A DNA stretch of 64,000 nucleotides, taken from NCBI RefSeq assembly GCF_036173125.1, contig NZ_CP108054.1:9741501-9805500 (forward strand). The letters are read 5' to 3'. The stretch is from Streptomyces sp. NBC_00286. Lineage in GTDB: Bacteria; Actinomycetota; Actinomycetes; Streptomycetales; Streptomycetaceae. Shown here in pieces: positions 32,895 to 63,416 of this stretch. The translations under genes and the position numbers were made by a program. The notes beneath the pieces were generated by a model. That model was not told the DNA's origin. It saw only the letters and a list, made by a program, of their open reading frames with translations, and did no database searches. Numbering within the stretch: the stretch's first letter is position 1; each line of letters opens with the position of its first letter.

Positions 32895-32910
32895 GCGAAG
32901 TATTTTAGTA
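32895..32910 (-). promoter_or_regulatory. TACTAA-box 1, before the L,D-transpeptidase
   Basis: On the gene strand TACTAA-AATAC-TTCGC, 17 bp upstream of the transpeptidase start. Member of the twelve-site family. Confidence 0.65.
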
Positions 32911-33028
32911 GACGAGCGTCGAGGGTTCTCGGTTCCCGCCGTCGGGGCTCGTGATTCAGGTGACTCCTCCTGGGCCCGACTCGGTCGTATGGCTGCGGCC
33001 GTCGAGGTCAAGAAGGTGGTGCACTACC

Positions 33029-33044
33029 ACGAAATGCATTAGTA
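33029..33044 (-). promoter_or_regulatory. TACTAA-box 2, transpeptidase/csoR intergenic
   Basis: TACTAA-TGCAT-TTCGT on the minus strand, 150 bp upstream of the transpeptidase start and 235 bp upstream of csoR. Which gene it serves is unclear. Confidence 0.55.
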
Positions 33045-33206
33045 GCTTGGTGTTTCATCGTCGGCGGCCGAGCGGTCGTCCCCCGCGCCGCTCGGCCGGC
33101 CGACGGTCTTCGCGCTCGAAGTTCGTCCGCATGGGCCCGGGTGCGTACGTACCGGATCACGCTCTCGCTCTCTGCCTCGTTCTCTCCTCGTCGACCACGG
33201 CCGTCT

Positions 33207-33223
33207 CATACGGCCGGGGGGTA
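33207..33223. promoter_or_regulatory. CsoR-type copper box before csoR, left half degenerate
   Basis: ATACGGCCGGGGGGTAT has the length and ends of the ATACCCC-N3-GGGGTAT palindrome, with a mutated left C-run. Located 56 bp before csoR, it may mediate autoregulation. A hairpin (GATGGTGG/CCACCATC, 33230-33254) follows in the leader. Confidence 0.5.
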
Positions 33224-33278
33224 TATTCGAGATGGTGGAGGTACTCCCACCATCACCAGAGGCGAGGGAATGAGACGC

Positions 33279-33560
33279 ATGGCCGGTCACAAGAAGCACA
33301 AGGACGACGTGCTCGTGCGGCTGCGCCGCATCGAGGGCCAGGTGCGCGGTCTTCAGCGCCTCGTCGAGCAGGACACGTACTGCATCGACGTCCTTACCCA
33401 GGTCTCGGCCACCACCCGCGCCCTGCAGTCCTTCGCCCTTCAGATGCTCGACGAACACATGGCGACGTGCGTGAGTGACGCTGTGGAAAAGGGCGGCGAG
33501 GACAAGGCTCTGAAGCTCAAGGAGGCGTCCGATGCCATCGCCCGGCTGGTTCGTTCCTGA
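33279..33560 (+). CDS. csoR: Copper-sensing repressor CsoR
   Basis: 93 residues from ATG 33279, with GAGGGA 9 bp upstream (ATG 33270 is also in frame but too close to it). The all-helical CsoR/RcnR fold shows LVRLRRIEGQVRGLQRLVEQDTYCIDVLTQ. The Cu(I) triad is complete: Cys 35, His 60 and Cys 64 (YCIDV, DEHMATC). CsoR tetramers leave DNA when Cu(I) binds. GC-rich palindromes of the CsoR type occur before DUF4396, an MFS pump, copZ-copA and the DUF6153-multicopper oxidase genes, which form its likely regulon. Confidence 0.95.
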   Translation: MAGHKKHKDDVLVRLRRIEGQVRGLQRLVEQDTYCIDVLTQVSATTRALQSFALQMLDEHMATCVSDAVEKGGEDKALKLKEASDAIARLVRS

Positions 33561-33812
33561 CGGGCGGTCGGCTCGCGGGTAGCGCTGCCATTGGCCAACC
33601 CGTACGAGGGCTCGTGGCGTCGCGGACGGTAGGGCGGCGAGGCGGCGGGTCACTTACGACGACGGGTGGATTCCTGGTGCCCGATGCGTTGCGGGCCATG
33701 CGGAGGGTGACGGCCTTTGTGGCCATCGCGACTGCGCGGTGTCCGTCTGCCGCCAGTCGACACGCCGGCCTTGGGGCGGCGTGCCTGTGGCTTGGTGCGG
33801 GTCGCCCAAACT
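33561..33812. other. Intergenic region without a supported gene
   Basis: About 250 bp between csoR and the terminator of the convergent TetR gene. Nothing recognisable. Confidence 0.45.
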
Positions 33813-33840
33813 CCCGCACTCTGCCTGAGCGGAGTGCGGG
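33813..33840. terminator. Terminator after the tetR-type gene
   Basis: CCCGCACTC and GAGTGCGGG form a 9-bp stem 14 bp past the TetR stop. Confidence 0.7.
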
Positions 33841-33853
33841 CCTGTGGTCCTCG

Positions 33854-34501
33854 CTATGTCTGATGCGGTCCGTAGTGGTCCAGGAACATATCGACGCCGC
33901 TGGTGATGAGGCGGTCGGTGAGGTCGTCGTCGATATGGGTTCCGTAGGAGCCGAAGACCATGTGGGGGAAGACCAAGAGTGCGTAGAGCTGGATGATCGC
34001 GGTCTCCGTGTCGGGGATGACCAGCCGTCCTTGGTCGGCCAGGGTGTGCAGCGCGCCCGCAACGGCCGGGTGATGGGCTTCGGGGCCACGGGCCTTCCAG
34101 GCCTCGGCGAGCTCGGGGAAGCGGTGCAGTTCGGCGGCGACGAGGTTGCGCAGGGCGGCGACCTCGCGGTTGGCACGTACGGCGTGGACCCAGACGCGAG
34201 CAGCGTCGATGAGTGCGGCGCGGAGGTCCTCGGCCTCGGCCAACCCCTCGAGTGCGGCTGGTGAGGCGCCGGCGAGGGGTTCGTCGAGCGCGCTCGTGAT
34301 GACCGCGGTGAACAGTGCTTCCTTGCTGCCGAAGTGGTTGTAGACGGTCACCTTGGAGACGCCCGCCTCGGCGGCGATGGCGTCCATGCCGACGCCGAAT
34401 CCCTCTCGCAGGAACAGTTCACGGGCGGCCCGGACGATGGCTTGCCGTTTGGCTTGGGCGCGGGGGCCGCTCGGGGGTGGTTTCACGGTCTCGCTACTCA
34501 T
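33854..34501 (-). CDS. TetR-family repressor of the adjacent MFS pumps
   Basis: 215 residues from ATG 34501. The N-terminal TetR domain (about 15-62) shows RQAIVRAARELFLREGFGVGMDAIAAEAGVSKVTVYNHFGSKEALF. The C-terminal ligand domain resembles the AefR/TetR_C group. It is divergent from two MFS genes; the shared 135-bp intergenic region holds strong palindromes, so drug-induced release of this repressor is the likely control. Confidence 0.9.
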   Translation of the reverse strand: MSSETVKPPPSGPRAQAKRQAIVRAARELFLREGFGVGMDAIAAEAGVSKVTVYNHFGSKEALFTAVITSALDEPLAGASPAALEGLAEAEDLRAALIDAARVWVHAVRANREVAALRNLVAAELHRFPELAEAWKARGPEAHHPAVAGALHTLADQGRLVIPDTETAIIQLYALLVFPHMVFGSYGTHIDDDLTDRLITSGVDMFLDHYGPHQT

Positions 34502-34522
34502 GACCGAATCCTAGCAAGCAAC

Positions 34523-34571
34523 TGAACTGAACTGTTGAGTTCATATGAACTGGGACGTACAGTTCAGTTCA
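34523..34571. promoter_or_regulatory. TetR operator region
   Basis: TGAACTGAACTG (34523-34534) and its exact inverse CAGTTCAGTTCA (34560-34571) flank the 14-bp palindrome AGTTCATATGAACT (34538-34551). GAACT/AGTTC half-sites thus occur six times in 49 bp. Confidence 0.75.
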
Positions 34572-34636
34572 GGGGTTCGTGCGGACAAGGCCGTGCGGAG
34601 GAGCAGCCCCGTCATGTCCTGTACGGGAGGAATCTC

Positions 34637-36229
34637 GTGTCTTCGACCACTCGTCCGGTGCCCGCACTACCGCGGTCCGGAGCCGCGCCGCCCGGCGGCA
34701 GGCGATGGCTGACCCTCGCCGTGCTCGGTGTGAGCCTGCTGGTAGTCGGTCTCGACACCACAGTGCTGAATGTCGCTCTGCCCACGCTGGTGACTGAACT
34801 GGGCGCCTCCACCAGCCAGTTGCAGTGGATCGTCGACAGCTATCTGCTGATGGCCGGCAGCCTCGTACTGTTCTGCGGCAGCCTCGCGGACCGGCTGGGC
34901 CGCAAGTGGGTGTTCATGACCGGCCTTGCACTGTTCACCGCGGCCTCCGTGGTCGCCGCGTACGCCGGGTCGGTGACGACGCTCGTCGTGGCGCGCGGTG
35001 TGATGGGCGTCGGCGAGGCGCTGATCATGCCCGCCACGCTCGCGATCATCGGGAACGTCTTCCCGCGCGGTGCCCAGCGGACCAAGGCGATAGGCATCTG
35101 GTCGGCGGCGGTCGGAGTCGGCACGGTGATCGGGCCAATGGTGGGCGGCTGGCTGCTGGGCGTCTTCTGGTGGGGCTCGGTGTTCCTGATCAACCTGCCC
35201 ATCGGGATCGCCGGCCTGATAGCCGCTGCCTTCCTGGTGCCGAACTCGAAGGCGGCGGATGCCCGGAGGCTGGATCCGGCGGGGGCCCTGCTGTCGGTGG
35301 CGGCCGTCGCCGCCGTGCTGTGGGCGGTGATCGATGGCCCGGACCGGGGTTGGACCAGCCCCGCTGTGCTGGCCGCCTTCGCGGCGGGAGCGGTGCTGGC
35401 CGGTGCGTTCATCGCCTGGCAGCGGCGCGGCGCGTCACCGATGCTGCCGCTGCGGATCTTCCGGCACCGGGCCCTCGCGGTTGGCGATGTACTCATCCTG
35501 CTGGGGGCGTTCGCCCTCATCGGCACCCTGTTTGTGGTCGTGCAGTACTTCCAGTTCGTACTCGGATACAGCGCCGCGCAGACGGGTCTGCGGCTCGGTC
35601 CTGTGGCACTGGCACTGCTGATCGCGGGGCCGCTGGCCGGCGTACTGGCGCCGCGGATCGGCATGCGGGCGGTGTCGACGGCCGGGCTCGCGCTGCTGCT
35701 GGGCTCATCGGCCGTGCTCGCCACCACCGGCACCGGGGACGGCTACGGGCGGGCACTGCTGGCGATGCTGCTCCTGGGCGCGGGTGCCGGGTTCGTCATC
35801 ACCTCCACCAGCGACGCCATCGTCGGATCGCTGCCGGAGGCTGATCTAGGCGTCGGCTCGGCCACCAACAGCGCGTCCATCCAACTCGGCGCGGCGGCGG
35901 GCGTGGCGGTCGCGGGCAGTCTGCTGTCCGATCGCTACCGCTCCGGCCTCGCCGAGGACGCGCACAGCGCCGCTTTGCCGCCCGAACTCCTGGCCTCCAC
36001 AAAGGAATCGGTCGGGACCGCGCTCGCGGTCGCCGAGAAGTTGCCCGGTGAGGCCGGGGCCGCCTTCGCGGACGCGGCCCGCCGGGCGTTCACCGACGGC
36101 ATGGGCCCTGCGATGGCTGCGGCGGTCGGCGTCACCGCGGTGGGCATCGCCGTCGCGCTCGCCTTCGCTCCCTCCCGCCCTACGGACTCTGCCACTGATC
36201 GCCGTACGAACTCCAAGGAGTCGTCATGA
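34637..36229 (+). CDS. MFS drug exporter (DHA2, 14-helix EmrB/QacA type)
   Basis: 530 residues from GTG 34637 with GGGAGGAA 5 bp upstream. Family motifs: LDTTVLNVALPTL in helix 1 (motif D1), GSLADRLGRKWVF (motif A) and GPMVGGWLL (motif C). About 14 helices are evident. A substrate-proton antiporter in the plasma membrane. Its stop overlaps the next MFS start (ATGA), so the two pumps are co-translated under the divergent TetR. Confidence 0.9.
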   Translation: MSSTTRPVPALPRSGAAPPGGRRWLTLAVLGVSLLVVGLDTTVLNVALPTLVTELGASTSQLQWIVDSYLLMAGSLVLFCGSLADRLGRKWVFMTGLALFTAASVVAAYAGSVTTLVVARGVMGVGEALIMPATLAIIGNVFPRGAQRTKAIGIWSAAVGVGTVIGPMVGGWLLGVFWWGSVFLINLPIGIAGLIAAAFLVPNSKAADARRLDPAGALLSVAAVAAVLWAVIDGPDRGWTSPAVLAAFAAGAVLAGAFIAWQRRGASPMLPLRIFRHRALAVGDVLILLGAFALIGTLFVVVQYFQFVLGYSAAQTGLRLGPVALALLIAGPLAGVLAPRIGMRAVSTAGLALLLGSSAVLATTGTGDGYGRALLAMLLLGAGAGFVITSTSDAIVGSLPEADLGVGSATNSASIQLGAAAGVAVAGSLLSDRYRSGLAEDAHSAALPPELLASTKESVGTALAVAEKLPGEAGAAFADAARRAFTDGMGPAMAAAVGVTAVGIAVALAFAPSRPTDSATDRRTNSKESS

Positions 36230-41247: not shown

Positions 41248-41784
41248 TCAGTGGTAGGCGTGGACGACGGCGTGGCCCTTGCCACGGCCGATCATCCACT
41301 TGTTCACCGGCGTGGTGATCAGGAACGCGACCCCGAACCCACCGAGAAGGGCGGACCAGAACAGCCCGTCGGAAAGGTGGGCGTCCATCGCGCCCGGGGT
41401 GAGGGCGATGATGCCGTTGTCGACGATCTCCATCACGGCGATGGAGACGGTGTCGGCGGCGAGTGCCACCTTGATCGCGGTCTTGAGATCCAGGCCAGCC
41501 CGGCGCACGGCGAAGAGCGTGAACGAGTAGCCGAACAGGAACGCCAGCGAGATCGCCAGGACCATGGTCTGCACGTTGCCCCACATCAGGGCGGTGCCGA
41601 TGACCATGCCGAGGATCTCGCCGATGGCGCACCCCGTGAGGCAGTGCAGCGTCGCCTTCGCCGCCATGGCCCAGGACGCTCCGCCGTGTCCCCCATCGGG
41701 TACCGCATGGTCGGAGTGGCCGTGGTGGCCCTCGTGCGTGGTGCTGGTGTGGTGCGCGCTGTGGTCCATGACCTTCATCCCCAT
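41248..41784 (-). CDS. DUF4396 membrane protein with His-rich N-terminus
   Basis: 178 residues from ATG 41784 (ATG 41778 or 41769 are possible starts). A His-rich N-terminus (MDHSAHHTSTTHEGHHGHSDHAVPDGGHGG) precedes four membrane helices, the first containing TLHCLTGCAIGEILGMVIG. This Cys/Gly motif is typical of DUF4396, often found beside copper genes. A perfect CsoR-type palindrome lies 42 bp upstream, so copper induction is likely. It may bind or move copper, but that is inference. Confidence 0.85.
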   Translation of the reverse strand: MGMKVMDHSAHHTSTTHEGHHGHSDHAVPDGGHGGASWAMAAKATLHCLTGCAIGEILGMVIGTALMWGNVQTMVLAISLAFLFGYSFTLFAVRRAGLDLKTAIKVALAADTVSIAVMEIVDNGIIALTPGAMDAHLSDGLFWSALLGGFGVAFLITTPVNKWMIGRGKGHAVVHAYH

Positions 41785-41817: not shown

Positions 41818-41967
41818 TCAGGAGCATATACCCCCATGGGGTATATGCCAAGGGGTGGCGCCGGGGGCGTTCCGTCGCTGGGATGGCAGGTGGATCCGGA
41901 GGCGCTTGAGAATCGCGGTGCTGCGCTCCTCGCGGTCGCCCATCGGGTGATCCAGGTGATGCTGCAT
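41818..41967 (-). CDS. Possible 49-residue protein behind a TACTAA-box
   Basis: ATG 41967 follows GGAGGAG at ideal spacing. The product MQHHLDHPMGDREERSTAILKR...IHLPSQRRNAPG ends at a stop within the copper box at 41826. The piece ERSTAILKRLR loosely recalls the start of CsoR-type repressors, so it may be a truncated metal regulator. TACTAA-box 3 lies 62 bp upstream. Confidence 0.4.
   Translation of the reverse strand: MQHHLDHPMGDREERSTAILKRLRIHLPSQRRNAPGATPWHIPHGGICS
41826..41848. promoter_or_regulatory. CsoR-type copper box before DUF4396
   Basis: CATATACCCC-CAT-GGGGTATATG: perfect 10-bp arms around three bases, 42 bp upstream of the DUF4396 start. Confidence 0.8.
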
Positions 41968-42306
41968 AGGCACTCCTCCGTCGGGTGGCGGATGCGCGTG
42001 GAGAACATCGACCGCAGTCCCCGTCAGAACTAAGGTCTTTAGTATGTCTGTGCAGAGTGACGGGCGGCCGATCGAGGACCGACAAGAGGGCGGTGCGGAG
42101 AGTGGCGGAGGCCTGCCGCAGACGCCCGTCAAGAGCCCGATTCCCTCCGCTGCTCATGTGGCCCCGGCGGTGCGAGTCGAGCTGGACGGCGACGAAGACG
42201 CCCAGGATGATGCAGCGCCCTCACGGGTGCCGGGCCCAGGTACAGGACTCCGGTCGATGGGCTGGGCCGTACGGCGAGTTCCGTACCTGCACGATAAGGA
42301 GGTTCA
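41968..42306. other. Region between TACTAA-boxes 3 and 4, no supported gene
   Basis: About 340 bp. A minus-strand stretch GCIILGVFVAVQLDSHRRGH near 42150-42210 looks like a leftover membrane segment. No complete gene can be defined, yet both ends carry TACTAA-boxes, suggesting a lost gene. Confidence 0.4.
42029..42044 (-). promoter_or_regulatory. TACTAA-box 3
   Basis: TACTAA-AGACC-TTAGT on the minus strand, symmetric (ACTAA-N5-TTAGT), 62 bp before the 49-residue frame. Confidence 0.65.
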
Positions 42307-42322
42307 TCTAAGTAGATTAGTA
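42307..42322 (-). promoter_or_regulatory. TACTAA-box 4
   Basis: TACTAA-TCTAC-TTAGA on the minus strand, at the 3' side of the lnt remnant; its target gene appears lost. Confidence 0.6.
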
Positions 42323-42329
42323 AATTGTT

Positions 42330-43901
42330 GGTCATGCTCGGGCAGGGAAGCGGGCGCCTGAGCTGCGCTGTGGCACGCCGCGAGCGACGCAGCGAGAGCG
42401 CCAGGGCGACGAGAACGGGCGCCCCCAGCGCCACCTCAGGCCACACGCCGAGCCACTCGGAGAGGGTGAGCCCCGAAGCGAGCGGTACCCGCTCCACCAG
42501 ATGGCCGGCACGCCAGGTCCCCAGCCGGTCCATGACCTGTCCGTCCGGCCCGACGATGGCGCTCACCCCGCTCGTCGAGGCGAGGGTGACCGCCCGTCCG
42601 TACTCGATCGCGCGGATGCGGGCCATCGCAAGCTGCTGTTCGGACTGCCCGGCCTGGATACCGCGCTCGTACGTCGCGTTGTTCGTCTGGACGACGAGGA
42701 GATTGGCGCCCGCCCGTACGGTGTCCCGGACCCGGTCGTCGTACGCGATCTCGTAGCAGATCACGTCACCAAGCAGCACCTGCCCCGCCTCCAGCGGGGC
42801 CGTGGAAGTACCGGGCAGGAGGTCGCGCGGGATGAGCTGGAGCGCGCCGAGGCCGCCGAGCAGCGAACGCGCCGGTATGTACTCGCCGAAGGGTATGAGC
42901 TGGCGCTTGGCGTACCAGGAGGCCGGGCCCTGGCCGGGCAGCCACAGCTGGCCGGCGTTGTACGCCCGGCCGCCGGGGGCTTCCAGTAGGGCGCCGATGG
43001 GGAGGGGCTGTCCAGTTCCCGGACCGCGTCGGCGACGAGGGAGCCAAGCTCCGGATTGCGTCCCGGATCGCCGTCGAGGGAGTTCTCCGGCCACAGGACG
43101 ACGTCCGGACGCGGGACCTCGCCGCGGCGCACGGCGGCGGCCAGGGCCTTCGTCTCGCGGGCGTGGTTCTGTGCGACGTTGCGCAATCGAGCCTGCTCCT
43201 CCAGCGTGCGCTCGCGTTTGACGTTGCCCTGGACGACGGCGACCACGGCGCTCGGTCCGGATGTCCTCCGGGCGGGGAGGGCGAGCGGTGTCGTGATCAG
43301 GGCGACCACGCCGAGGCATATGGCCGCGCTGACCTGCCGACGGCCGCCGCGCCATGCCGTCAGGCCGTACACCAGCAGCGATCCCAGGAACGCGACGGCG
43401 AAGGAGAGGGCTGGGCCGCCGCCCACAGCGGCCCAGCCGGCATACGGGGCATCCGCCTGCCCGAAGGCCAGCCGACCCCAGGGGAAGCCGCCCAGTGGAG
43501 CCCGGCCGCGTACTGCCTCCAGGACCACCCACCACGCGGCGGTGTACAGCGGCCAGCCCGGCAGCGCGATCAAGCGGGGCAGCGGCATCGCGGCGAGCGC
43601 GAAGACCAGGGCCTGGACCGCCGTGAGGGTGAGCCACGGGACCAGGCCGAGGTTCGCCAGCCAGACGATCAGCGGGGCGAGGAAGGTGATACCGAAGATC
43701 CCGCCCGCGGTGAAGGCGGATCTGGCGCGCCGTCCGCGCACGGCCAGGATCAGTCAGGGCCGGGCCGAGCGGGGCCAGGAACCACCATCCGACCGGCGGG
43801 AACGAGGCGTAGAGGAGCAGTCCCCCGGCGGACGCGGCTGCCCAGGACCGGATGGTGGCCGCAGTGGGGCGGCGGGTCACGCGCGGAGGTCCGGCCCTCA
43901 C
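42330..43901 (-). pseudogene. lnt: Apolipoprotein N-acyltransferase, two frameshifts
   Basis: Starts at GTG 43901, overlapping the upstream stop (GTGA). Lnt features: N-terminal membrane helices, then the nitrilase domain with VQGNVKRERT, VLWPENSLDGDP (catalytic Glu/Lys region), QLIPFGEYIPAR, GDVICYEIAYDDRVRD (catalytic Cys) and NNATYERGIQ. One extra A near 43750 separates FLAPLGPAL from LILAVRGRRARSAFTAG. One base is missing near 43007 between AVRELD and QPLPIGALLEAPGGRAYN. No stop is found at the usual end. The enzyme adds the third acyl chain to lipoproteins at the membrane. Confidence 0.8.
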
Positions 43902-44353
43902 GAAGGCACTGCGCAGACGTTCGCGGTGCGCAGTCGTCGTACGAGCACGTGGACCAGCAGCGCCACCGAGGCGGCGGCGAGTACCGGTTGCAGCGGAGCG
44001 AAGTACGACAGGGCGCCGCTGACGCCGATGGCCAGCACGACTAGCTTGTTGCAGATCGGGCAGCCGACCGCGAAGACGGACAGCAGCCCCGCGCCGAGGG
44101 CGCGAGCGGTGCGAGGACGCTCGGGCAGCGCGGCCTCGGGGGCTTCGGCTGAGCCGATGCGGACGTACGTGGCCACGAGGAGGCCCTCCAGTACGGAGCT
44201 GACCAGCCACACCGGGTAGTTCCACCAGAGCACGGGGGTCATCCGCGTGTAGAAGGGGGTCGGCACCACGCCCGTCGGGACGCCGATGACGAGTGCGGCG
44301 ATCACCGTGACCGCTGCTGCCACGGCCCATCTGCGGGCGGGCCAGGTGCGCAT
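43898..44353 (-). CDS. Membrane protein with CPIC motif, coupled to lnt
   Basis: 151 residues from ATG 44353 with GAGGAG 5 bp upstream. About five membrane helices, the fourth carrying VFAVGCPICNKLVVLAIGVSGALSYFAP. The C-P-I-C motif near a membrane helix could bind copper or act in thiol redox, as in vitamin K reductase-like proteins; this is inference. Its stop overlaps the lnt start. TACTAA-box 5 is 99 bp upstream. Confidence 0.7.
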   Translation of the reverse strand: MRTWPARRWAVAAAVTVIAALVIGVPTGVVPTPFYTRMTPVLWWNYPVWLVSSVLEGLLVATYVRIGSAEAPEAALPERPRTARALGAGLLSVFAVGCPICNKLVVLAIGVSGALSYFAPLQPVLAAASVALLVHVLVRRLRTANVCAVPS

Positions 44354-44451
44354 GGGGCTGCTCCTCGGGATCGGGCCGCCGACCGGGCGACACGTCAAAC
44401 CGGGGAGCCTGACAACGGCCTCCGGTCGGCGGCTGGCAGCCATGCTATGTC

Positions 44452-44467
44452 ACTAATTGGGTTAGTA
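44452..44467 (-). promoter_or_regulatory. TACTAA-box 5, before the CPIC protein-lnt operon
   Basis: TACTAA-CCCAA-TTAGT on the gene strand; fully symmetric ACTAA-N5-TTAGT. Confidence 0.7.
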
Positions 44468-44958: not shown

Positions 44959-45006
44959 GAGGGCCTCCCGGTGGGCTGTGGGGCGCTCGTCGAACCCGCT
45001 CTAGCT

Positions 45007-45022
45007 ACTAAGTAATTTAGAT
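45007..45022 (-). promoter_or_regulatory. TACTAA-box 6, before the small membrane protein pair
   Basis: ATCTAA-ATTAC-TTAGT on the gene strand; the only member in which the hexamer differs (ATCTAA). Confidence 0.55.
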
Positions 45023-47346: not shown

Positions 47347-49206
47347 TCAGTGACTCTTGTACTCGAAGATGTACAGCCCGAAGTCGCGGTCGGAGGCCGC
47401 GACGTACTCCTTGCTGAAGGAGTTGAAGGTCTGCACCCCCAGAAGTTGTTGCCGCCCTCGTCGATGAAGCGGCCGACCTCCACGAGTTTGTCGTTCTTGA
47501 TCTTCGTGACCCGGAATCCGCCCGCGCAGTAGGCGAAGTACGCCAGGTCGGGCCGGACGCCGGAGGTCGCCACCTCGTGGACCGACAGGTCACCGGCGCC
47601 GGAGGCGTACGCGGGGTCCTGGCTCTCCGGAATGGCGTACGTGTCCAGCCCGGTCATCTTCCCGTCCTTGTTGCGGTAGAGGTGCGCGTAGCCCCAGCCG
47701 TCGAAGTGCGAGGAGAAGGTGAGCCGGTCGCCCTTGGTGCCGATGTCCACCGGCAGGGTGGCGGGACCGGTGCCGGCGAGGCAGTCCTCGTTGCTGTAGG
47801 GCTGGTCGAAGGCGGCGAAGCCCTGGCCGCGGGGGTGCGACACCGAAGGTCGGCAGGGTGCCCTCGACGGTCATGCCGCTCTGTGCGTCGCAGGCGTCCG
47901 AGCCGGTGCGGTTGAAGACGAGTACGGCGTCGTAGCCGCCCGCCGCCTCGATGTCGGCGGCCTTCTCGGTGAACGTGCAGACGCCGCGCTCCACTACGGC
48001 GATGTCCACGTTGGCCGGGTCGCCCGCGGGGACGGCGGGGCTGTCGTTGCAGCCCAGGCCGACGTGCACCGTGTCGCCGGTGATGGTCTTGCCCGCCTCC
48101 AGCGGGATGCCCTGGCCGGCTGTGACGGCGGCGTTGTCGTCGAGGTTGCGGGCCGAGAGCGCGTACGGGCCGAAGTCCTCGTCGGCGCCGATCACATACC
48201 GGTTGCCGAGAGTGAACTCCGCCTGGTGGCCGTGGCCTTCCGGCGCCACGTCACGCCCGTTCGCCGTGCCCTCGGGATCGGGGTCGGTGAAGTCGGTGTC
48301 GCCGATGTACTTGAGGTTCTTCGGGTCGGTCGCGTCCAGGGCGACGTAGCCCGCGTCCCAGTAGGAGGCCAGCAGGACCTGGCGGCCGCGGATGTTCTTG
48401 ACGACCATGTCGTGCAGGAAGACCTCGGTCAGGTTGTCCGGAGCGGCCTGGAGGATCTGCGGGAACGTCTCGTCCAGGTCGTACTCGGCGATGAGTTGCG
48501 GCTTCGTCGGATCCGTGATGTCCATGATGTCGACGTCCGTGCCCTCTTCGTTGTCGACGATCACGGCGTACGCCTTGCGGCCCGCATCCCACGCGAACAC
48601 GCTGTGGATCTGGCGGGCGGTCTCCGTCTTCTCGCCGCCCAGGGTGAAGTCGCCGACGCCCTCGGCGAGTGCCTTCGGCTTGGTGGGGTTGCTGACGTCG
48701 TAGATGTTCATGCCGCCGGAGCCGGTCTCGCCGCAGATCTCGTTGTTGCTGACGAGCACGTCACCGTTGAAGGACGGCGTGGAGAGGTGCACCGTCTGGA
48801 TGCCCTCGCCGGGAGCGCTGCCCGCCGGAGCGGGGATGAAGCCGACTTCCTTGGGCTTGCTGGGCTTTCGGATGTCGACGACGTACACGCCGGTGTTGTC
48901 GCAGCCGACGCCGCCCCAGGAGGCGAGGTAGGCGTATACCTTGTGGACACCGACGTCGGCGATCTTGCCTTCGACCACGTTGCTCAGCTTGAGCTTGCTG
49001 ACCAGCTGGGCGTTTTTCTGAGTGGCAGGCAGATGTCCGTCGCTGCCGCCGTGTTGGTCGTGGCCGTGGCTGGCCGCCGCGTTGTCGATGGCGCCGTCGG
49101 TTGCCGAGACGCCGTCATGTGCTTGTGCGGAACCGGCGAGAGCGGTCGTGGCGAAGAGCATCGCCGCGAACACGCCCACGCCGGTCTGTCTGTGGGCCTT
49201 GCGCAT
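47347..49206 (-). pseudogene. Secreted LVIVD-repeat protein with PA domain, two frameshifts
   Basis: From ATG 49206 (GGAGG 7 bp upstream): signal peptide (GVFAAMLFATTALAGSAQAHD), a His-rich segment (SHGHDQHGGSDGH), then LVIVD-type beta-propeller repeats (VYVVDIRKPSKPKEVGF, MNIYDVSNPTKPKALAE, VDIMDITDPTKPQLIAEYD). A PA domain is inserted (VVERGVCTFTEKAADIEAAGGYDAVLVFN). The frame shifts after TLPTFGV (about 47850) to SHPRGQGFAAFDQPYSN. It shifts again at a G-run (about 47440) to VQTFNSFSKEYVAASDRDFGLYIFEYKSH. Joined, the protein is about 620 residues. TACTAA-box 7 is 75 bp upstream. Confidence 0.8.
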
Positions 49207-49280
49207 GCTTGACCTCCACTCGTGCGGCCGGGGTGACCGGCCCAAAACGAGGTGATGCCGGTCACCAACTGACCGGCATC

Positions 49281-49296
49281 GCGAAGGTACTTAGTA
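49281..49296 (-). promoter_or_regulatory. TACTAA-box 7, before the LVIVD/PA gene
   Basis: TACTAA-GTACC-TTCGC on the gene strand, 75 bp upstream. Confidence 0.65.
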
Positions 49297-52208: not shown

Positions 52209-52502
52209 TCAGGCGCGGCCGACGAGCTCGTAACCGGCCTCGTCCACGGCGGCGCGGACGGCCGCCTCCTCGAGCGGTGCGGCGGAGGTGACGGTGACCT
52301 CGCCGGTCTTGGCGACGGCCTTGACTGCGGTGACGCCGTCCAGAGCGGAGATCTCCTGGGAGACGGAGCTCTCGCAGTGGCCGCAGGTCATGCCGTTCAC
52401 CTTGTAGGTGGTGGTGACGCCGATGCCCTCGACGTCGACCGTGGCGCCGGAACCGCAGGAGCCGCAGCAAGAGCCGGAGCTGGAGTTCGTCTGGGTGGTC
52501 AT
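52209..52502 (-). CDS. copZ: Copper chaperone CopZ-like, with Cys-rich N-terminus
   Basis: 97 residues from ATG 52502 with GGAGGAA upstream. A Cys-rich leader (SSSGSCCGSCGSG) precedes a heavy-metal domain with NGMTCGHCESSVSQEI and GYELVG. It should bind Cu(I) in the cytoplasm and hand it to CopA, encoded 112 bp downstream. A perfect CsoR box lies 80 bp upstream. Confidence 0.92.
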   Translation of the reverse strand: MTTQTNSSSGSCCGSCGSGATVDVEGIGVTTTYKVNGMTCGHCESSVSQEISALDGVTAVKAVAKTGEVTVTSAAPLEEAAVRAAVDEAGYELVGRA

Positions 52503-52598: not shown

Positions 52599-52649
52599 TC
52601 CTCCACGTGTGGGGCTGCGCACATGGTCCGTCCGGCTGGTTCTTTGCTC

Positions 52650-52668
52650 GCCTACCTGCTTAGTAGGC
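52650..52668 (-). promoter_or_regulatory. TACTAA-box 8, between copZ and the cbtA remnant
   Basis: TACTAA-GCAGG-TAGGC on the minus strand, also readable as the palindrome GCCTAC-N7-GTAGGC. It could serve the cbt genes (53 bp ahead on the plus strand) or copZ (148 bp). Confidence 0.5.
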
Positions 52669-53766: not shown

Positions 53767-54639
53767 TCACGCGGCCATCATCAGCAGCATCGCGGACATG
53801 GTCCCGCCCATGCCGATATGCGCTGCCAGCGCCGCGTCGTGCGCGGCTCCGAGTTTGCGGCGCCGCCCGTGGCCTGCCCGCTGGCCCGTCCTGGTCCTGT
53901 CCCACACCGAGAGCGTCAGCGACGCCAGGTAGACGAGCACGGTGTCCGGCATGGCGAGCAGCCAGCGGCCCCAGCCTCCCCGAGAGCCGGCACCCCGACC
54001 ACCTCGCCGCGCGCCCCGGATCCTCGCCCACACGGACGCGCCGATCGACAGCAGGAAGTAGACGGCGAGAGCCGCGACCACGAAGCGCCATACAGAACCG
54101 GACCCGGCGGAGGAACCGGCGTCGGCCGCGGCATTCGTCATGCCCGGCATATCCATTCCGTGCGTGGACCCCATGCCGTGCGTGTGGTCCATGCCCTCCA
54201 TCTCGTGCGTGCTCGTCGCGCTCGCTGTGTTCTCCATACCCGGCATGTGGGCCATTGAGTGTCCGCCGCCCAGCGCGAGTACCGGACCGGAGGACGTGCT
54301 CGTCATGGCCAGCGTCATGATCACCATGCCGAAGCTGCCGACGATCAGGTGCACCCAGTGACGGCCGTGCTTCCACCCGGACGAGCGCGTGTGCTTGACC
54401 GCCATCGCCACAGCCCCGAGCCCTAGGAGGCCGAACGCCACTGACCACCACATGCCGTAGCCCGCGTACCAGCCGACCGTCGCCGGCAGGGCCATGGCCG
54501 CCATGCACAGCCCCATCAGCAGGTCGCCGCCCGCCGCGAACCGGGCCTCACCCCTGGTGGTCACCATCCGGACCGCGCTGACGGCAGCCACCAGGGCGGA
54601 GACCAACGCGATGGCCCAACTGAGCGCGAGGATTCCCAT
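53767..54639 (-). CDS. DUF5134-like membrane protein with Met/His-rich loop
   Basis: 290 residues from ATG 54639 (GTG 54645 also possible), with GAAGG upstream. About five helices in the N-terminal half, then a Met/His-rich loop (HSMAHMPGMENTAS..., MEGMDHTHGMGSTHGMDMPGM, about 127-170), then two or more helices. Met/His clusters of this kind bind Cu(I)/Cu(II) outside the membrane in copper proteins. Actinobacterial DUF5134 proteins are of unknown role. TACTAA-box 9 is 96 bp upstream. Confidence 0.75.
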   Translation of the reverse strand: MGILALSWAIALVSALVAAVSAVRMVTTRGEARFAAGGDLLMGLCMAAMALPATVGWYAGYGMWWSVAFGLLGLGAVAMAVKHTRSSGWKHGRHWVHLIVGSFGMVIMTLAMTSTSSGPVLALGGGHSMAHMPGMENTASATSTHEMEGMDHTHGMGSTHGMDMPGMTNAAADAGSSAGSGSVWRFVVAALAVYFLLSIGASVWARIRGARRGGRGAGSRGGWGRWLLAMPDTVLVYLASLTLSVWDRTRTGQRAGHGRRRKLGAAHDAALAAHIGMGGTMSAMLLMMAA

Positions 54640-54734
54640 CTTCACCTTCCCGTTCGTCCGAGCTGGCGGGCCTGCGCTGCCGACGCCGCCTCGTCGTACG
54701 GAGCACCGCGAGGGGCGCTACCTGGGCATTAACT

Positions 54735-54750
54735 GCTAGTGCCCTTAGTA
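54735..54750 (-). promoter_or_regulatory. TACTAA-box 9, before the DUF5134 gene
   Basis: TACTAA-GGGCA-CTAGC on the gene strand. Confidence 0.6.
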
Positions 54751-56612: not shown

Positions 56613-56613
56613 A

Positions 56614-57062: not shown

Positions 57063-57405
57063 TCAGGCGTCGGCTGACGAACCGTTGAATCGCGGCGTGC
57101 GCTTTTCCAGGAAGCCACACGGGCAACCGTTTTCGTCCTCTGTCCCGGACAGAGCATGGAAGCCCCGTTCGAAGAGTGCGCCGTGACCGCGGCCCGCTCT
57201 TCAGGGCACGGTCGACGCCACCGGACCTGCCGCGCTCCTGCCCGCAGGACGGCAACCGGCTCTCGGTAGGTGTGATCAATGCGCACGACGCCCGCGACCG
57301 GCATGGGCTTCTCCGGGTTCTTCCTGCTCCCCGTCCAGCTGACCAAGAACGGCTGTGGTTCTCCTCCTTCCCCAGCCGTGGACGACGCGGGGCGCTCTTG
57401 GGCAG
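57063..57405. other. Region without a supported gene
   Basis: About 340 bp between the DUF218 remnant and TACTAA-box 10. A minus-strand stretch NPEKPMPVAGVVRIDHTYREPVA looks coding but cannot be placed. Confidence 0.4.
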
Positions 57406-57421
57406 TACTAAGGTAGTTCGT
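57406..57421 (+). promoter_or_regulatory. TACTAA-box 10, before ccsB
   Basis: TACTAA-GGTAG-TTCGT on the plus strand, 72 bp upstream of the ccsB start. It is the only box oriented this way, matching the only plus-strand target, so gene-strand polarity is kept. Confidence 0.65.
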
Positions 57422-58338
57422 GCTTCCACTGTCGCCTCGACGGCACAGCGGACCCCGGCCGCACTCGCACGCGGCCGGACGAGGAGCGTGGCCGTGGACG
57501 GTGCAACAGGAAGCAGCACGCAAGTGCTGGCACCGCCCGCGGCCACGTCTCACGAAGAAAACCGAGCCCCGGCGGGCGACCGCCCTGGCGCGGCCGGTGA
57601 CAGCCCCAGGGCCGACCTGGTGGGACGGATCGCAGTCTCGCTGACCGTGCTGGCGCTCCTGCTCCACTCCGGCTCGGTCCTCGCCCGCGGTCTCGCGGTG
57701 AGCTGCCCGCCGTGGGGCAAACATGTGCGAGTTCTCCACCGCCTTCGCCCTGATGGCGTCGGCCGCGTAGGTAGGTTTACTGGCAGCCCGGAAGCCCGTG
57801 CGCTGGCCGGGAGTTCCGGTCCTCTTCTCGGTCCTGCTGACCCTCGGCCTCGCGGTGTCGGTGCTGTACGTGGACTCCGCGCAGCTCGTGCCGGCTCTGC
57901 ACTCGTACTGGCTGTGGATCCACGTCTCCGCCGCGATCATCTCCGGTGGCGTGTTCCACACCGCGGCCGTGGTCACCGTCCTATACCTGTTCCGCGACCG
58001 CTGGGAGCACGCGGTTGCGGCGGGCCGAGTCGCGGGGCGGACGGCGGGGCTCCGGCGGCGGCTGCCGTCCGCGCGGACGCTGGACAAGTTGGCGTACCGG
58101 CTGACGGGCCTGGTGTTCCCGCTGTGGACCTTCGCGGTCATCGCGGCCCGGTGTGGGCGGAGGCCGCGTGGGGCCGCTACTGGGGCTGGGACCCCAAGGA
58201 GACCTGGGCCTTCATCACTTGGGTCGCGTACGCCGCGTACCTCAACGCCCGTGTCATTGCCGGGTGGAAGGGTCGGCGCGCGGCGGTGCTCGGGCTCGTG
58301 GCGTTCGCCACCTTCGTCTTCAACTACTACGGCGTCAA

Positions 58339-59737
58339 CATCCTCATCATCCGGATTCCTCCGTGGATACCCCCGCCTTCAGGCGGGGGAGGAAGCGGAC
58401 TCCTGCGGAGCAGGGCAGGGAAAGCCGATTCGCCTCCTGGGCGGTTCGGCGTCCATCGCCAACTACCAAGCAGGGGTCACAAGTTGATGTGATAGTTGGT
58501 GAGTCATGGCCACTGGCGTGAAGCGGGCCTTCAAGTACCGTTTCTATCCGACCGATGCGCAGGCAGCCGAGCTGTCGCGCACCTTCGGATGCGTGCGCAA
58601 GGTCTACAACATGGCCCTCGCGGCCCGTACCGAGGCCTGGGCGCGGCAGGAACGGGTCAACTACAACCAGACCTCGGCCCTGCTGACCGCGTGGAAGAAG
58701 ACAGAGGAACTCGCCTACCTCAACGAGGTCTCCTCCGTGCCGCTGCAGCAGGCCTTGCGGCACCTGCAGGCCGCCTTCGCGAACTTCTTCGCCAAACGCG
58801 CCAAGTACCCGCGCTTCAAGGCGAAGAAGACCTCCCGGGCGAGCGCGGAGTACACCTCCTCCGCCTTCCGGTTCCGCGACGGCCAGCTGACACTGGCCAA
58901 GATGGCCGACCCGCTGGACATCGTCTGGTCGCGTCCCCTGCCCGAGGGGGCGACGCCGAGCACGGTGACGGTGAGCCGGGACAGCGCCGGACGCTGGTTC
59001 GTCTCCCTGCTGTGCGAGGACCCGCGGGTCAAGCCGCTCGCGGCGGTCGACGCGGCAGTGGGTATCGACGTCGGGCTTAACCACCTGCTGACCCTCTCCA
59101 CGGGGGAGAAGATCGCCAACCCGCGGCATGAGCGCCGCGACCGCGAGCGACTGGCGAAGGCCCAGCGGGAGCTGTCCCGCAAGGCCAAGGGCGAGGGTGC
59201 CAACCGGCAAAAGGCCCGCCAGAAGGTCGCCAAGATCCATGCCCGGATCGCCGACCGCAGGCGGGATGTGCTGCACAAGCTGACCACTCGACTCGTGCGT
59301 GAGAACCAAACGCTTGTGATCGAGGACCTGACCGTACGCAACATGGTCAAAAACCGGAGCCTGGCCCGCGCCATCAGTGATGCCGCGTGGTCCCAGTTCC
59401 GGAGCATGCTGGAGTACAAGGCCGACTGGTACGGGCGGGAAGTAATCGCGGTGGACCGCTTCTTTCCTTCCTCCAAGCTGTGCTCCGCCTGCGGCAGCCT
59501 TTCTGAGGCGATGCCGCTGCATGTCCGTTCCTGGACGTGCGGCAGTTGCGGCACGGCCCATGACCGGGACGTGAACGCCGCTGAGAACCTTCTGGCCGCC
59601 GGGCTGGCGGTGTCTGTCTGTGGAGCCGGTGTAAGACCTCAACGGAGAACTCCGGGCGGGCAGTCGGCGGTGAAGCAGAAAACCCCACGGCGCGAGCCGT
59701 AGGAATCCCCCTCGTTCACGAGGGGGAGGAAGTCAAC
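58339..59737 (+). mobile_element. IS200/IS605-type element, TnpB-only (IS1341-like), inserted in ccsB
   Basis: A 1399-bp element. TCAA flanks the left end (58335-58338) and ends the right end (59734-59737), as expected for IS605-type cleavage. Subterminal hairpins are CCCCCGCC-TTCA-GGCGGGGG (58370-58389) and CCCCCTCG-TTCA-CGAGGGGG (59708-59727). There is no tnpA, so movement would need a transposase in tr ans from elsewhere. Deleting the element joins GGCGTCAA to CATCGGTCTGCAC, restoring YYGVNIGLHS of ccsB in frame. Confidence 0.85.
58506..59702 (+). CDS. tnpB: TnpB RNA-guided nuclease of the element
   Basis: 398 residues from ATG 58506. An N-terminal OrfB_IS605 helix-turn-helix (KRAFKYRFYPTDAQAAEL...CVRKVYNMAL) precedes the RuvC-like nuclease. 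The catalytic acids are present: Asp 188 (VGIDVGLNHLLTLS), Glu 273 (VIEDLTVRNM) and Asp 355 (HDRDVNAAEN). A zinc ribbon C-x2-C...C-x2-C (CSACG, CGSCG) sits between the last two. TnpB cuts DNA using a right-end-derived guide RNA and is the ancestor of Cas12. The gene looks intact and likely active. Confidence 0.93.
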   Translation: MATGVKRAFKYRFYPTDAQAAELSRTFGCVRKVYNMALAARTEAWARQERVNYNQTSALLTAWKKTEELAYLNEVSSVPLQQALRHLQAAFANFFAKRAKYPRFKAKKTSRASAEYTSSAFRFRDGQLTLAKMADPLDIVWSRPLPEGATPSTVTVSRDSAGRWFVSLLCEDPRVKPLAAVDAAVGIDVGLNHLLTLSTGEKIANPRHERRDRERLAKAQRELSRKAKGEGANRQKARQKVAKIHARIADRRRDVLHKLTTRLVRENQTLVIEDLTVRNMVKNRSLARAISDAAWSQFRSMLEYKADWYGREVIAVDRFFPSSKLCSACGSLSEAMPLHVRSWTCGSCGTAHDRDVNAAENLLAAGLAVSVCGAGVRPQRRTPGGQSAVKQKTPRREP

Positions 59738-59753
59738 ATCGGTCTGCACTCCC
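59590..59753 (+). ncRNA. Predicted omega-RNA with ccsB-derived guide
   Basis: In IS605-type elements the guide RNA covers the 3' end of tnpB and the right end, with the guide read from the flank. Here the scaffold would include the hairpin at 59708-59727, and the guide would begin at 59738 (CATCGGTCTGCACTCC). It would match the empty ccsB site next to TCAA. The 5' limit is a guess. Confidence 0.45.
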
Positions 59754-59813
59754 ATGGAAGGCTGCCGACCCGATAAAGAGCTCATCGGGCGGTGAGGCCG
59801 TAAGGTGTTCCAG

Positions 59814-59828
59814 TACCCCCTGGGGGTA
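59814..59828. promoter_or_regulatory. CsoR-type copper box before the DUF6153-oxidase genes
   Basis: TACCCC-CTG-GGGGTA, perfect 6-bp arms, 45 bp upstream of the DUF6153 start. Confidence 0.8.
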
Positions 59829-59872
59829 GGATGCGACTCCGGCGACCAGCCAGCACGGCACAGGTGGAACTC

Positions 59873-60334: not shown

Positions 60335-60410
60335 GCCGCGCCGGACGGCGCGCGATGTGCCGTCCCCTTCGCGACCACATCGGCAGTTTCGATACAGAGG
60401 ACACACCACC

Positions 60411-62042
60411 ATGAACAGCATCAACCGCCGCTCCATCTTGCTCGCCGGGCTGGGAGCCGCAGGCGCCGGAGCGCTCGCCGCGTGCACCAATGCGAATAGC
60501 TCAGGTAGCGGCACCGCCCTGATCAACCCCAACGCCTCGGCGGTCGCCGCCACCGAGAAGAAGCGCAAGAGCACCGGGCGCCAGCAGAAGGTCACCCTGA
60601 CGGCCGCACCGGCCATGATCGACTTGGGCGGCGGCGTCACGCCCAAGACCTGGGCCTTCGACGGCCGTACCCCGGGCAAGGAGGTCCGGCTCTCCGTTGG
60701 CGACACCCTGGTCGCCGAGCTGTCGAACCAGCTCCCGAACAAGACCACCACGTCCATCCACTGGCACGGCATCGCGCTGCGCAACGACATGGACGGCGTG
60801 CCGCCCACCACCCAGACCGCCGTCCGGGCCGGCTCCACCTTCGCCTACAAGTTCGTCGCCGACGCCCCCGGCACCTACTTCTTCCACCCGCACGTTGGCG
60901 TCCAGCTCGACCGCGGCCTGTACGCCCCGTTGATCGTCGAGGACCCCAAGGAGACCCTCGCGTACGACGACGAGTGGGTCGTCCTCCTCGACGACTGGGT
61001 TGACGGCGTCACCGGCACCCCCGACAAGGTCTTCGCCGAGGTCAGGCAGGGGATGGGCGGCATGGAGGGGCACGACATGGGGGAGAGCAGCAGCCCCAGC
61101 TCCAGTGGTATGGAAGGCCATGACATGGGGGACATGAGCGGGATGGACATGGGGGACTCTGAGTCTCCCTCGGCTTCCGCCTCCTCGTCCGGCGGCATGT
61201 CGATGAAGTTCATGCTCATGGGCGCGGAAAGCGACCTGCTCGGCGGCGACGCCGGGGACGTCAAGTACCCGCACCACCTGATCAACGGCCGGGTGGCGAC
61301 CGACCCCGACGTCTACACCGGCAAGCCCGGCAAGAAGGTACGGCTGAGGATCATCAACGCGGGCGGCGACACCGCCTACCGCATCGCCCTCGGCGGCCAC
61401 AAGCTGACCATCACCCACACAGACGGCTTCCCGATCCAGCACCAGGAGGTGGACGCCCTGCTCGTCGGAATGGGCGAGCGCTACGACGTCCTGGTCACCC
61501 TGGGGGACGGCGTCTTCCCGCTCGTCGCCGTGGCCGAGGGCAAGGACGCGAACGGCTTCGCGCTGGTGCGCACGGGCTCGGGGAGCGCCCCGAAGCCGAC
61601 CGTCCGCCCGAAGGAACTCGACGGCATGATCATGACGGCCTCCCAGCTGCGCGCCGCCGACGACGTGCGCCTGAAGTCCGCCAGGGCCGACGTGACGCAC
61701 CAGCTCAAGCTGACCGGCGGCATGGCCAAGTACGACTGGGCCATCAACGGCAAGCCCTTCGACATGGACAACCCCGAGGCGAACCCGATCATGATCGAAG
61801 AGGGCCAGCGCGTACGGCTCGACTTCGTCAACGACACCGACATGTGGCACCCGATGCACTTGCACGGCCACACGTACCAGATCGGCACCTCTGGTCCCCG
61901 CAAGGACACCGCGATCGTGCTGCCCAAGAAGAAGCTGTCCGTCTTCTTCGACGCTGACAACCCGGGGCAGTGGATGCTGCACTGCCACAACGCGTACCAC
62001 GGCGAGGCCGGGATGATGGCGAACGTGGCCTATCCGGCCTGA
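60411..62042 (+). CDS. Multicopper oxidase, Tat-exported
   Basis: 543 residues from ATG 60411. A twin-arginine lipoprotein-like signal (NRRSILLAGLGAAGAGALAACT) opens the protein. Copper motifs: HWHG (His 117), HPHVG (His 159), HPMHLHGH (His 480) and HCHNAYH (His 524), forming one type 1 and one trinuclear centre. A Met/Gly/His/Ser-rich loop (about 215-265, GMEGHDMGDMSGMDMG) may bind Cu(I) substrate. It probably oxidises Cu(I) outside the membrane. Regulated through the CsoR box at 59814. Confidence 0.93.
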   Translation: MNSINRRSILLAGLGAAGAGALAACTNANSSGSGTALINPNASAVAATEKKRKSTGRQQKVTLTAAPAMIDLGGGVTPKTWAFDGRTPGKEVRLSVGDTLVAELSNQLPNKTTTSIHWHGIALRNDMDGVPPTTQTAVRAGSTFAYKFVADAPGTYFFHPHVGVQLDRGLYAPLIVEDPKETLAYDDEWVVLLDDWVDGVTGTPDKVFAEVRQGMGGMEGHDMGESSSPSSSGMEGHDMGDMSGMDMGDSESPSASASSSGGMSMKFMLMGAESDLLGGDAGDVKYPHHLINGRVATDPDVYTGKPGKKVRLRIINAGGDTAYRIALGGHKLTITHTDGFPIQHQEVDALLVGMGERYDVLVTLGDGVFPLVAVAEGKDANGFALVRTGSGSAPKPTVRPKELDGMIMTASQLRAADDVRLKSARADVTHQLKLTGGMAKYDWAINGKPFDMDNPEANPIMIEEGQRVRLDFVNDTDMWHPMHLHGHTYQIGTSGPRKDTAIVLPKKKLSVFFDADNPGQWMLHCHNAYHGEAGMMANVAYPA

Positions 62043-62310
62043 CGTTCGCCTCGCGCCGTCCGGGCGGCCCATCGGCTGGCGGTGGGTGCGTCCGGATGCG
62101 GCGTGCGGATGGTTTCTCGGCTCTCCGGCTTGCGCGCGACGCGGATGACACACGGGGAGTTGGGCGGCGTATGGCCGTTGACCAGGAAGTCGAAGTGCCG
62201 CGCCTTCTGGATGCTGAACCCGGCGTGCTCAATGGCTTGTTCAGTATCCCGGCCGAGGTTGCAGCCACCTCCAGCAGGGGCCACACGAGGTTGATCCTGC
62301 GCGGACCGTT
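62030..62310 (-). pseudogene. C-terminal fragment of a class I methyltransferase
   Basis: The minus strand reads RRINLVWPLL and then, in a shifted frame, AGGGCNLGRDTEQAIEHAGFSIQKARHFDFLVNGHTPPNSPCVIRVARKP. This is the end of a UbiE-like SAM methyltransferase. The SAM-binding half is missing and the end overlaps the oxidase stop. Confidence 0.65.
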
Positions 62311-62372
62311 CCTACTATTCGAGCGCAGTACGCCTGGCTGGCGGCGCGGCCCTGGGGGCTCTGGGTGCGGAA

Positions 62373-62412
62373 GCCGCCGCGGGACCGGAAGCGATTCCGG
62401 TCCCGCGGCGGC
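62373..62412. terminator. Very strong terminator after the sulP remnant
   Basis: A perfect 18-bp stem (GCCGCCGCGGGACCGGAA and complement) with GCGA loop, 10 bp past the minus-strand stop at 62422. Confidence 0.8.
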
Positions 62413-62421
62413 CTCGGCCCG

Positions 62422-63040
62422 TCAGACGGCCGACGTGACCTTCACGGCTTCGGTGCCCTCCGAGCTGTGCCGTGCCGCCCAGTTCTCCAGAGCGTTGGTC
62501 CCCGAAGGCACTCGGGGTCGGCGGCTGTATCGCGCCGAGCAGTCCTTGGACCTCCACCTTGGCCACCGGCAGGCCGAGGAACACCGAAGCGGCCGTGGCG
62601 AGTCCCGCGGCGGCGAGTGGTGCCGGCACCACCTGGATCGCCTCCGGCAGCTTCTTACACAGCATGAGCACGGCGATGGTGCCCGCCCCGAGGCCGAGCG
62701 AACAGCTGGCCCGCGATCAGCACCAGCCCGATCCCGGCCAGCACGCCCTCGACGACGGTGACCGAGATGGCCCGGAAGTAGTGCCCGAACTTCAGGGTGT
62801 CCATGAGGAGTTGGAGTACGCAGGTGGCGAGCACGATGACGCCGAGAACGGGCAGCTCGTACTCGCGTACGGCTTCGAAGACCAGCACGGTCAGACCGGC
62901 AGCCGGGCCCGAGACCTGCAGATTGCTGCCGGGCAGCAGCCCGGTGACGAGGCCACCCACGATGTCGGCGACGGGGCCGAGTTCGGCTGGTACGCAGAGG
63001 CGACGGCGACGCCCACGCACTGCGCAGCGGAGACCTACAC
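62422..63040 (-). pseudogene. SulP-family anion transporter, deleted and frameshifted
   Basis: Pieces in order on the minus strand: VPAELGPVADIVGGLVTGLLPGSNLQVSGPAAGLTVLVFEAV, YFRAISVTVVEGVLAGIGLVLIAGQLFA; then (about 62700) a jump to LGLGAGTIAVLMLCKKLPEAIQVVPAPLAAAGLATAASVFLGLPVAKVEVQGLLGAIQPP. The last stretch, LENWAARHSSEGTEAVKVTSAV, has a stop at 62422. These are N-terminal and middle SulP segments; most of the transporter and any STAS or carbonic anhydrase domain are missing. TACTAA-box 11 lies just upstream. Confidence 0.75.
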
Positions 63041-63048
63041 AGTGCTCC

Positions 63049-63064
63049 GCTAAGTTTATTAGTA
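63049..63064 (-). promoter_or_regulatory. TACTAA-box 11, before the sulP remnant
   Basis: TACTAA-TAAAC-TTAGC on the gene strand. Confidence 0.65.
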
Positions 63065-63091
63065 CATTAACCGTAGTCGACGTCCGAGTCG

Positions 63092-63343
63092 TTACGGTGA
63101 GATGTCACCCTCATGGGGATCGGTTTCAGGGGTAGACCCCACCGGTTCTTCCCGCCTGCGCTGGCGCCGCTCCCTCCATGCCAGCTCTGCTGTCACGATC
63201 ACCGCAAGAACCGCGACCAGTGCTATCACAAGGGTGCTGATGGCGGAGATCCCTGACAGGAACCCGCCTTCCTCCTTGATGTCCGAAGCGACGTGAAAGG
63301 TGCTGGTGAAGCTCGGGGTGTAGGCGTCGCTGTATCCGGTCAT
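63092..63343 (-). CDS. Small single-helix membrane protein
   Basis: 83 residues from ATG 63343, behind GGAGGGGG. A polar N-terminus (MTGYSDAYTPSFTSTFHVASDIKEEGG) leads to one helix (ISAISTLVIALVAVLAVIVTAELAW) and a basic then acidic C-terminus. No family recognised. TACTAA-box 12 is 58 bp upstream, so it is a likely regulon member. Confidence 0.65.
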   Translation of the reverse strand: MTGYSDAYTPSFTSTFHVASDIKEEGGFLSGISAISTLVIALVAVLAVIVTAELAWRERRQRRREEPVGSTPETDPHEGDISP

Positions 63344-63400
63344 GTCCCCCTCCAGTCCCCTGCTTTTGGGGGTGTGTGACGCCTACGTTACCCGAGTTTA

Positions 63401-63416
63401 TCTAAGGATCTTAGTA
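63401..63416 (-). promoter_or_regulatory. TACTAA-box 12, before the small membrane protein
   Basis: TACTAA-GATCC-TTAGA on the gene strand. Confidence 0.65.

Follow-up and report, generated by a model that had tools for sequence, protein, structure and literature searches.

The window analysed here is a 64,000-nucleotide stretch of Streptomyces sp. NBC_00286, positions 9741501-9805500 of a single contig of 9,853,519 bases (NZ_CP108054.1); coordinates are given in its frame unless they are genomic, and positions past its end continue the same count. It encodes CopA, CopZ, a cupredoxin, a multicopper oxidase and CsoR, and its second half carries a family of short sites with the hexamer TACTAA next to genes for envelope proteins. 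The underlying element is an inverted repeat of 17 bp, TACTAAG-N3-CTTAGTA, with half-sites at a fixed spacing of five bases. Judged from sequence comparisons, the sites are most probably operators of one repressor, a BlaI protein encoded at the edge of this island, and a peptidase would inactivate BlaI and thereby switch on the envelope gene set.

TACTAA occurs 12 times in the window, between 32905 and 63416, compared with a mean of 0.86 and a maximum of 5 in 100 shuffles. It is absent before 32.8 kb, as an earlier reading made from the letters alone (the sequence-only reading) had noted. The longer pattern TACTAA-N5-TT was found ten times (shuffle mean 0). In the whole genome (9.85 Mb) it occurs 11 times, always within the same 35.3 kb (9774398-9809647, window frame 32898-68147), and its backward control occurs five times. 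A region of 213.5 kb that includes the window and 180 kb from the opposite contig end together contain 14 copies of TACTAA, all at 9774405-9814797. With up to two mismatches to TACTAA-N5-TTAGTA, the genome contains 13 places, ten in the island and three elsewhere, against 34 for the backward control; the unusual feature is therefore the clustering and not the genome total.

The half-site spacing was examined in seven island stretches from the present genome and five related genomes, where CTAA-Nk-TTAG was counted 41 times at k=5 and 0-2 times at every other k from 0 to 15. A scoring matrix was trained only on islands of other genomes (66 sequences, both orientations counted). Selection of these by CTAA-N5-TTAG or TACTAA-N5-TTCG predetermines the inner columns of the matrix but leaves the outer ones free. 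At a score of at least 10, the matrix finds 13 sites in 43 kb of the present island (11 inside the window), whereas 343.5 kb of control DNA contain no such site and reach 8.9 at best. Together with the genome-wide count (11 of 11 in 35.3 kb), this shows that the motif is not scattered genome-wide; a genome-wide scatter is what the sequence-only reading had named as speaking against a regulon. The sites in the window are the following, where G400, G280 and G263 are other Streptomyces genomes with site clusters.

32894-32910, minus strand: operator candidate before the L,D-transpeptidase gene (31613-32872; YkuD domain); matrix 20.8.
33028-33044, minus strand: second operator candidate, farther upstream of the L,D-transpeptidase gene and divergent from csoR (33279-33560); matrix 17.5.
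42028-42044, minus strand: operator candidate upstream of a DUF4396 gene (41248-41784); matrix 22.5.
42306-42322, minus strand: counterpart of the relatives' pre-lgt operator, aligned with G280, G400 and G263, the lgt frame being broken here; matrix 30.2.
44451-44467, minus strand: operator candidate before the gene of a 151-residue protein (43898-44353), which precedes lnt; conserved in G400 and G280; matrix 24.3.
45006-45022, plus strand: operator candidate before two small membrane protein genes (44958-44534, minus strand), start 64 bases off; matrix 28.8.
49280-49296, minus strand: operator candidate before an LVIVD/PA-domain gene (47590-49206, by domain search); matrix 15.7.
52649-52665, minus strand: degenerate site before copZ (52209-52502); matrix below 7.5, compared with 28.3 (G400) and 26.3 (G280) for the copZ sites of relatives.
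54734-54750, minus strand: operator candidate before a DUF5134 gene (53767-54639, by Pfam); matrix 11.3.
57406-57422, plus strand: operator candidate at a ccsB-like gene (Cytochrom_C_asm); matrix 13.8.
63048-63064, minus strand: operator candidate whose downstream gene is sulP only by the label of the sequence-only reading; matrix 26.4.
63400-63416, minus strand: operator candidate before an 83-residue open frame (63092-63343); matrix 29.3.

The clustered family described by the sequence-only reading is thus real, and its coordinates are correct to within one base. All 12 of its sites, not 11, contain an exact TACTAA, but one of them (52650) is degenerate and is not upheld. The family is not confined to the window and continues past its end at 68131-68147, close to the 3' end of a FemAB gene, and at 73294-73310, before an NlpC/P60 gene. 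The open frame of the ccsB-like gene (57176-58492) begins before its site, so that the true start is unsure, and the 83-residue frame has no Pfam match. The lnt frame is broken in the present genome, as is the adjoining lgt frame (42129-44393); intact copies are present in relatives including G280.

The sequence-only reading had also proposed that TACTAA always lies distal to the gene. Such a common polarity would suit recognition as a promoter element by the SigE-type sigma factor that is encoded within the site-bearing region (64503-65078, shortly beyond the window). Across the islands and loci together, the TACTAA half is distal at 67 sites, proximal at 26 and equal at 10, with 96 of the 199 dropped as ambiguous, and at 45006 it faces its gene pair (start 44958, minus strand), so the polarity is not fixed. 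In an inverted repeat with a fixed five-base spacing it has little meaning. The dyad and its constant spacing argue against a sigma-factor element, the operator frame is shared by Rhodococcus plasmids (see below), and no homologue of the sigma gene was found in the 120 kb examined of G400 despite 13 copies of TACTAA there; we consider this explanation very unlikely.

TACTAA as a -10 element was rejected as a candidate. Relative to the operator centre, TANNNT hexamers start most often at -5 (37), 3 (24), -1 (15) and 4 (14), all inside the operator, and the best offset outside it was 12 (n=10). Among these 135 oriented sites there is no fixed arrangement of -10-like hexamers outside the operator of the kind expected if the sites coincided with the ordinary promoter elements that the sequence-only reading had considered, in what is a weak test with many homologous copies. 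Just downstream of the pre-lgt site in G280 and G400, a TATAGT hexamer (TAGAGT in G263) precedes the start codon by six bases, an arrangement consistent with promoter blockage.

As the sequence-only reading had stated, no regulator gene of the BlaI type lies in the window; blaI was found 10 kb outside it, with an element in the same frame upstream. A PF03965 profile search of the genome gave four matches, one of them weak, the best being at 9815812-9816144. This blaI gene (74279-74653, minus strand) encodes a protein that matches the Penicillinase_R domain with 89.6 bits (cut-off 22.6), contains no cysteine and has 2g9w as its nearest solved chain (E 2.4e-22). It overlaps by a few bases the next gene (73371-74282), coding for a 303-residue membrane protein with HEQAH. 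The latter scores 38.3 bits for M48, over the cut-off, and 23.1 bits for M56, under the cut-off of 31, and its plasmid orthologues are annotated as M56. M48 and M56 are its sole matches at E up to 0.001, with no beta-lactam sensor domain among them. An NlpC/P60 gene (72120-73145) is next in the neighbourhood.

A scan of named genomes yielded 73 blaI loci, 72 in Streptomyces and one in Microtetraspora. Upstream of blaI, TACTA-N8-CGTA is present in 50 of these, and among the other spacings from 0 to 15 one was seen, once. In the present genome the element lies at 74680-74696, where TACTAT and TGCGTA fit the same 17-bp frame, and it suggests that BlaI may regulate its own gene.

The sites are linked to blaI in many genomes. 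TACTAAN5TTMG is found at least once in 142 of 392 genomes of the genus and at least eight times in four, i.e., the present genome (11), G400 (9), G263 (8) and G280 (8). All eight sites of G280 fall within about 52 kb and eight of the nine in G400 within about 60 kb; in G263, six lie within 8.3 kb, one by a second blaI orthologue and one elsewhere. Orthologues of blaI with 86-89% identity occur inside these three clusters or at most 10 kb away. Exclusion of five loci in training genomes left 68 test loci (1.286 Mb), in which CTAA/TTAG dyads number 28 at k=5 and 0-5 at other spacings. They contain 125 matrix matches, with at least one in 60 loci, and 20 control loci of other PF03965 genes (381 kb) contain one dyad and two matches. 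Predicted binding of BlaI to the dyad is well supported at the sequence level.

Two further blaI genes in the G400 cluster (C1:1927086 and 1960983) have variant dyads upstream, one of them ACCTAAG-N3-CTTAGGT, which are perhaps diverged operators of paralogues. On a second contig of G128 (C2:574-8922), three TACTAAN5TTCG sites lie within 8.4 kb, and no PF03965 match is listed there. Three sites on contig C34 of G215 (loci L057, L088 and L093) are in DNA of 29-32% GC, where the pattern is expected more often.

Two other regulators are encoded in the region, CsoR (33279-33560) and a TetR-type protein (68603-69253), and one of these or another island regulator could bind the sites. Boxes of the CsoR type, at 41829, 46942, 47021, 52583 and 59814, resemble the Streptomyces consensus ATATACCCCTNAGGGGTATAT as given in PMC3902906; they differ from the dyad and stand apart from it in the window. 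The TetR gene has no full-length match in the examined stretches of G263, although that genome has sites, and linkage of the sites to blaI spans several genera. Control by such a regulator therefore seems improbable, and BlaI is preferred.

Genes near the 199 sites of islands and loci were grouped to identify putative targets; some of the listed frames are antisense artefacts of the gene finder. NlpC/P60 genes gave 54 entries from 44 sources, some loci having overlapping matches. Other groups were DUF5134 (22), L,D-transpeptidase (10, from 6 sources), DUF6153 (9), PF03640 lipoprotein (7), NicO (7), DUF4396 (6) and copZ (6), plus smaller ones, and for 27 sites no gene start was found within 260 bases. 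In G280, sites lie upstream of lgt, ResB and the gene that precedes lnt; in G400, upstream of genes for a thioredoxin-type lipoprotein, a VanW protein and an M23 peptidase. MurJ and FemAB are also encoded in the island and are at most candidate direct targets. With three LNT_N and four MurJ matches in the present genome, those in the island are extra copies. No beta-lactamase was present among the proteins searched, and L,D-transpeptidase is among the putative targets. The idea of an envelope or copper regulon put forward by the sequence-only reading holds up as a prediction.

Relatives of BlaI were found in 120 plasmid records, with six Streptomyces plasmids at 88-93% identity. Of 14 plasmid stretches read, ten were counted; the Streptomyces stretches L259, L260 and L261 and the near-duplicate L263 were left out. 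The ten (243 kb) contain 16 copies of ACTA-N7-TAGT, compared with 0-6 at other spacings, distributed over Rhodococcus erythropolis (6), Microbacterium (4), R. rhodochrous (3) and R. opacus (3). The sixth operator base is A in Streptomyces and T in Rhodococcus. In R. erythropolis the sites are at, or close to, the starts of copD, an M23-blaI-M56 operon, ctaD, a small antitoxin-annotated gene, a thioredoxin gene with divergent copC, and a DUF3105 gene. Such stretches also bear lspA, lnt, ResB, CcdA, TlpA or CtaG genes. Matrix matches number one in pFRL6 and five in pFRL4. The latter, a linear Streptomyces plasmid (L261, 30894-35317), carries the FemAB, MurJ and SigE-type sigma block of the island together with blaI, M56 and NlpC/P60 (C40) genes, which points to horizontal transfer.

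Relatives of the island on large plasmids, and its own position near the contig end, are also compatible with a function of the sites in the maintenance or recombination of mobile-element DNA instead of transcription. However, many sites stand shortly before gene starts, and the same site-gene pairs recur despite differing gene content and order, which makes this explanation barely credible.

Several observations weigh against the assignment of the sites to BlaI. The loci share ancestry, so the counts are not independent events, and control locus L251 coincides with L215, a 77% relative. The G400 cluster region contains three blaI genes and that of G280 two, which leaves no unique partner in either, and the element upstream of blaI scores below 7.5 by the matrix. 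For loci with a BlaI of at least 80% identity, one other ACTA/TAGT spacing reaches 12, compared with 16. ACTA-N7-TAGT is absent from 11 loci with a BlaI of 60-73% identity and from six of the ten plasmid stretches, all of which have BlaI relatives.

In the mechanism that we propose, a BlaI dimer would repress about a dozen envelope and copper genes by binding TACTAAG-N3-CTTAGTA in their promoters, and would also bind a weaker form of the dyad before blaI itself. Upon envelope damage, e.g., by copper, the membrane metallopeptidase from the same operon would most likely inactivate BlaI, by analogy with BlaR1 (PMC9834060). The genes switched on in this way would be those for L,D-transpeptidase, NlpC/P60 proteins and small membrane proteins, together with those that serve lipoprotein acylation and cytochrome c/thiol-redox maturation. 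That BlaI physically binds and represses, that the peptidase acts on it, and that copper or envelope damage is the inducer are what we infer. Copper is reported to disturb lipoprotein acylation (PMC7387801), and L,D-transpeptidases are reportedly inhibited by copper, according to a title in the reference list of PMC12729407.

The system shares with BlaI-BlaR1 and MecI-MecR1 of Staphylococcus aureus and Bacillus licheniformis a Penicillinase_R repressor and a zinc-metallopeptidase in one operon, and, as predicted here from DNA and protein sequence, dimer-bound operators and likely self-regulation (PMC3305447, PMC9834060). Unlike in those systems, the island partner has 303 residues and no match to the beta-lactam sensor domain, the targets are many and extend over about 40 kb instead of forming a small divergon, and no beta-lactamase was found among the island targets examined. 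The resemblance to BlaI/MecI/CopY-type operators that the sequence-only reading had seen holds; a strict CopY is excluded. The CopY copper repressors belong to the same protein family as BlaI and act in a copper gene setting, but they have a C-terminal cysteine motif for metal binding and bind the cop box, whereas the island BlaI lacks cysteine and has a 17-bp dyad in place of the cop box.

For Clostridium thermocellum, the BlaI motif is described as inverted GTCTAT repeats five nucleotides apart (PMC8457756), a spacing that fits the 17-bp frame, whereas the regulons of BlaI_0696 and BlaI_1845 are given as small, with three and one operons. The copper-inducible lit2 of Listeria monocytogenes is likewise an extra lipoprotein-acylation enzyme that travels with copper resistance (PMC7387801); it is described as a single gene, unlike the island with its envelope gene set and BlaI-type switch. 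No published account of this regulon was found in the literature searched, which leaves most subscription journals outside its coverage.

BlaI systems have mostly been described as few-gene beta-lactam switches, and here BlaI appears to run a mobile, copper-linked envelope gene set in many actinobacteria. If copper damage to the envelope is the signal, this would explain why genes for lipoprotein and cytochrome maturation are present on such islands and plasmids, and M56 peptidases lacking a sensor domain would gain a function. A portable envelope-repair regulon, common to actinobacterial copper or metal islands and plasmids, is a tentative extension that we hold to be possible but not the likelier case. 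A BlaI-M56 pair lacking a beta-lactam sensor might then perceive damage done by metal to the apparatus that serves exported proteins and the cell wall, and turn on spare copies of lipoprotein-acylation, cytochrome c/thiol-redox, L,D-transpeptidase and wall-peptidase genes, all under a single type of 17-bp operator with one lineage-dependent base.

The CsoR-type boxes in the island indicate that the copper genes have a second regulator. As a second repressor, CsoR would act at separate boxes on copZA and a small number of further genes; it would probably respond to cytosolic copper, leaving the envelope genes to BlaI. Two of the five CsoR-type boxes stand together before an MFS transporter gene.

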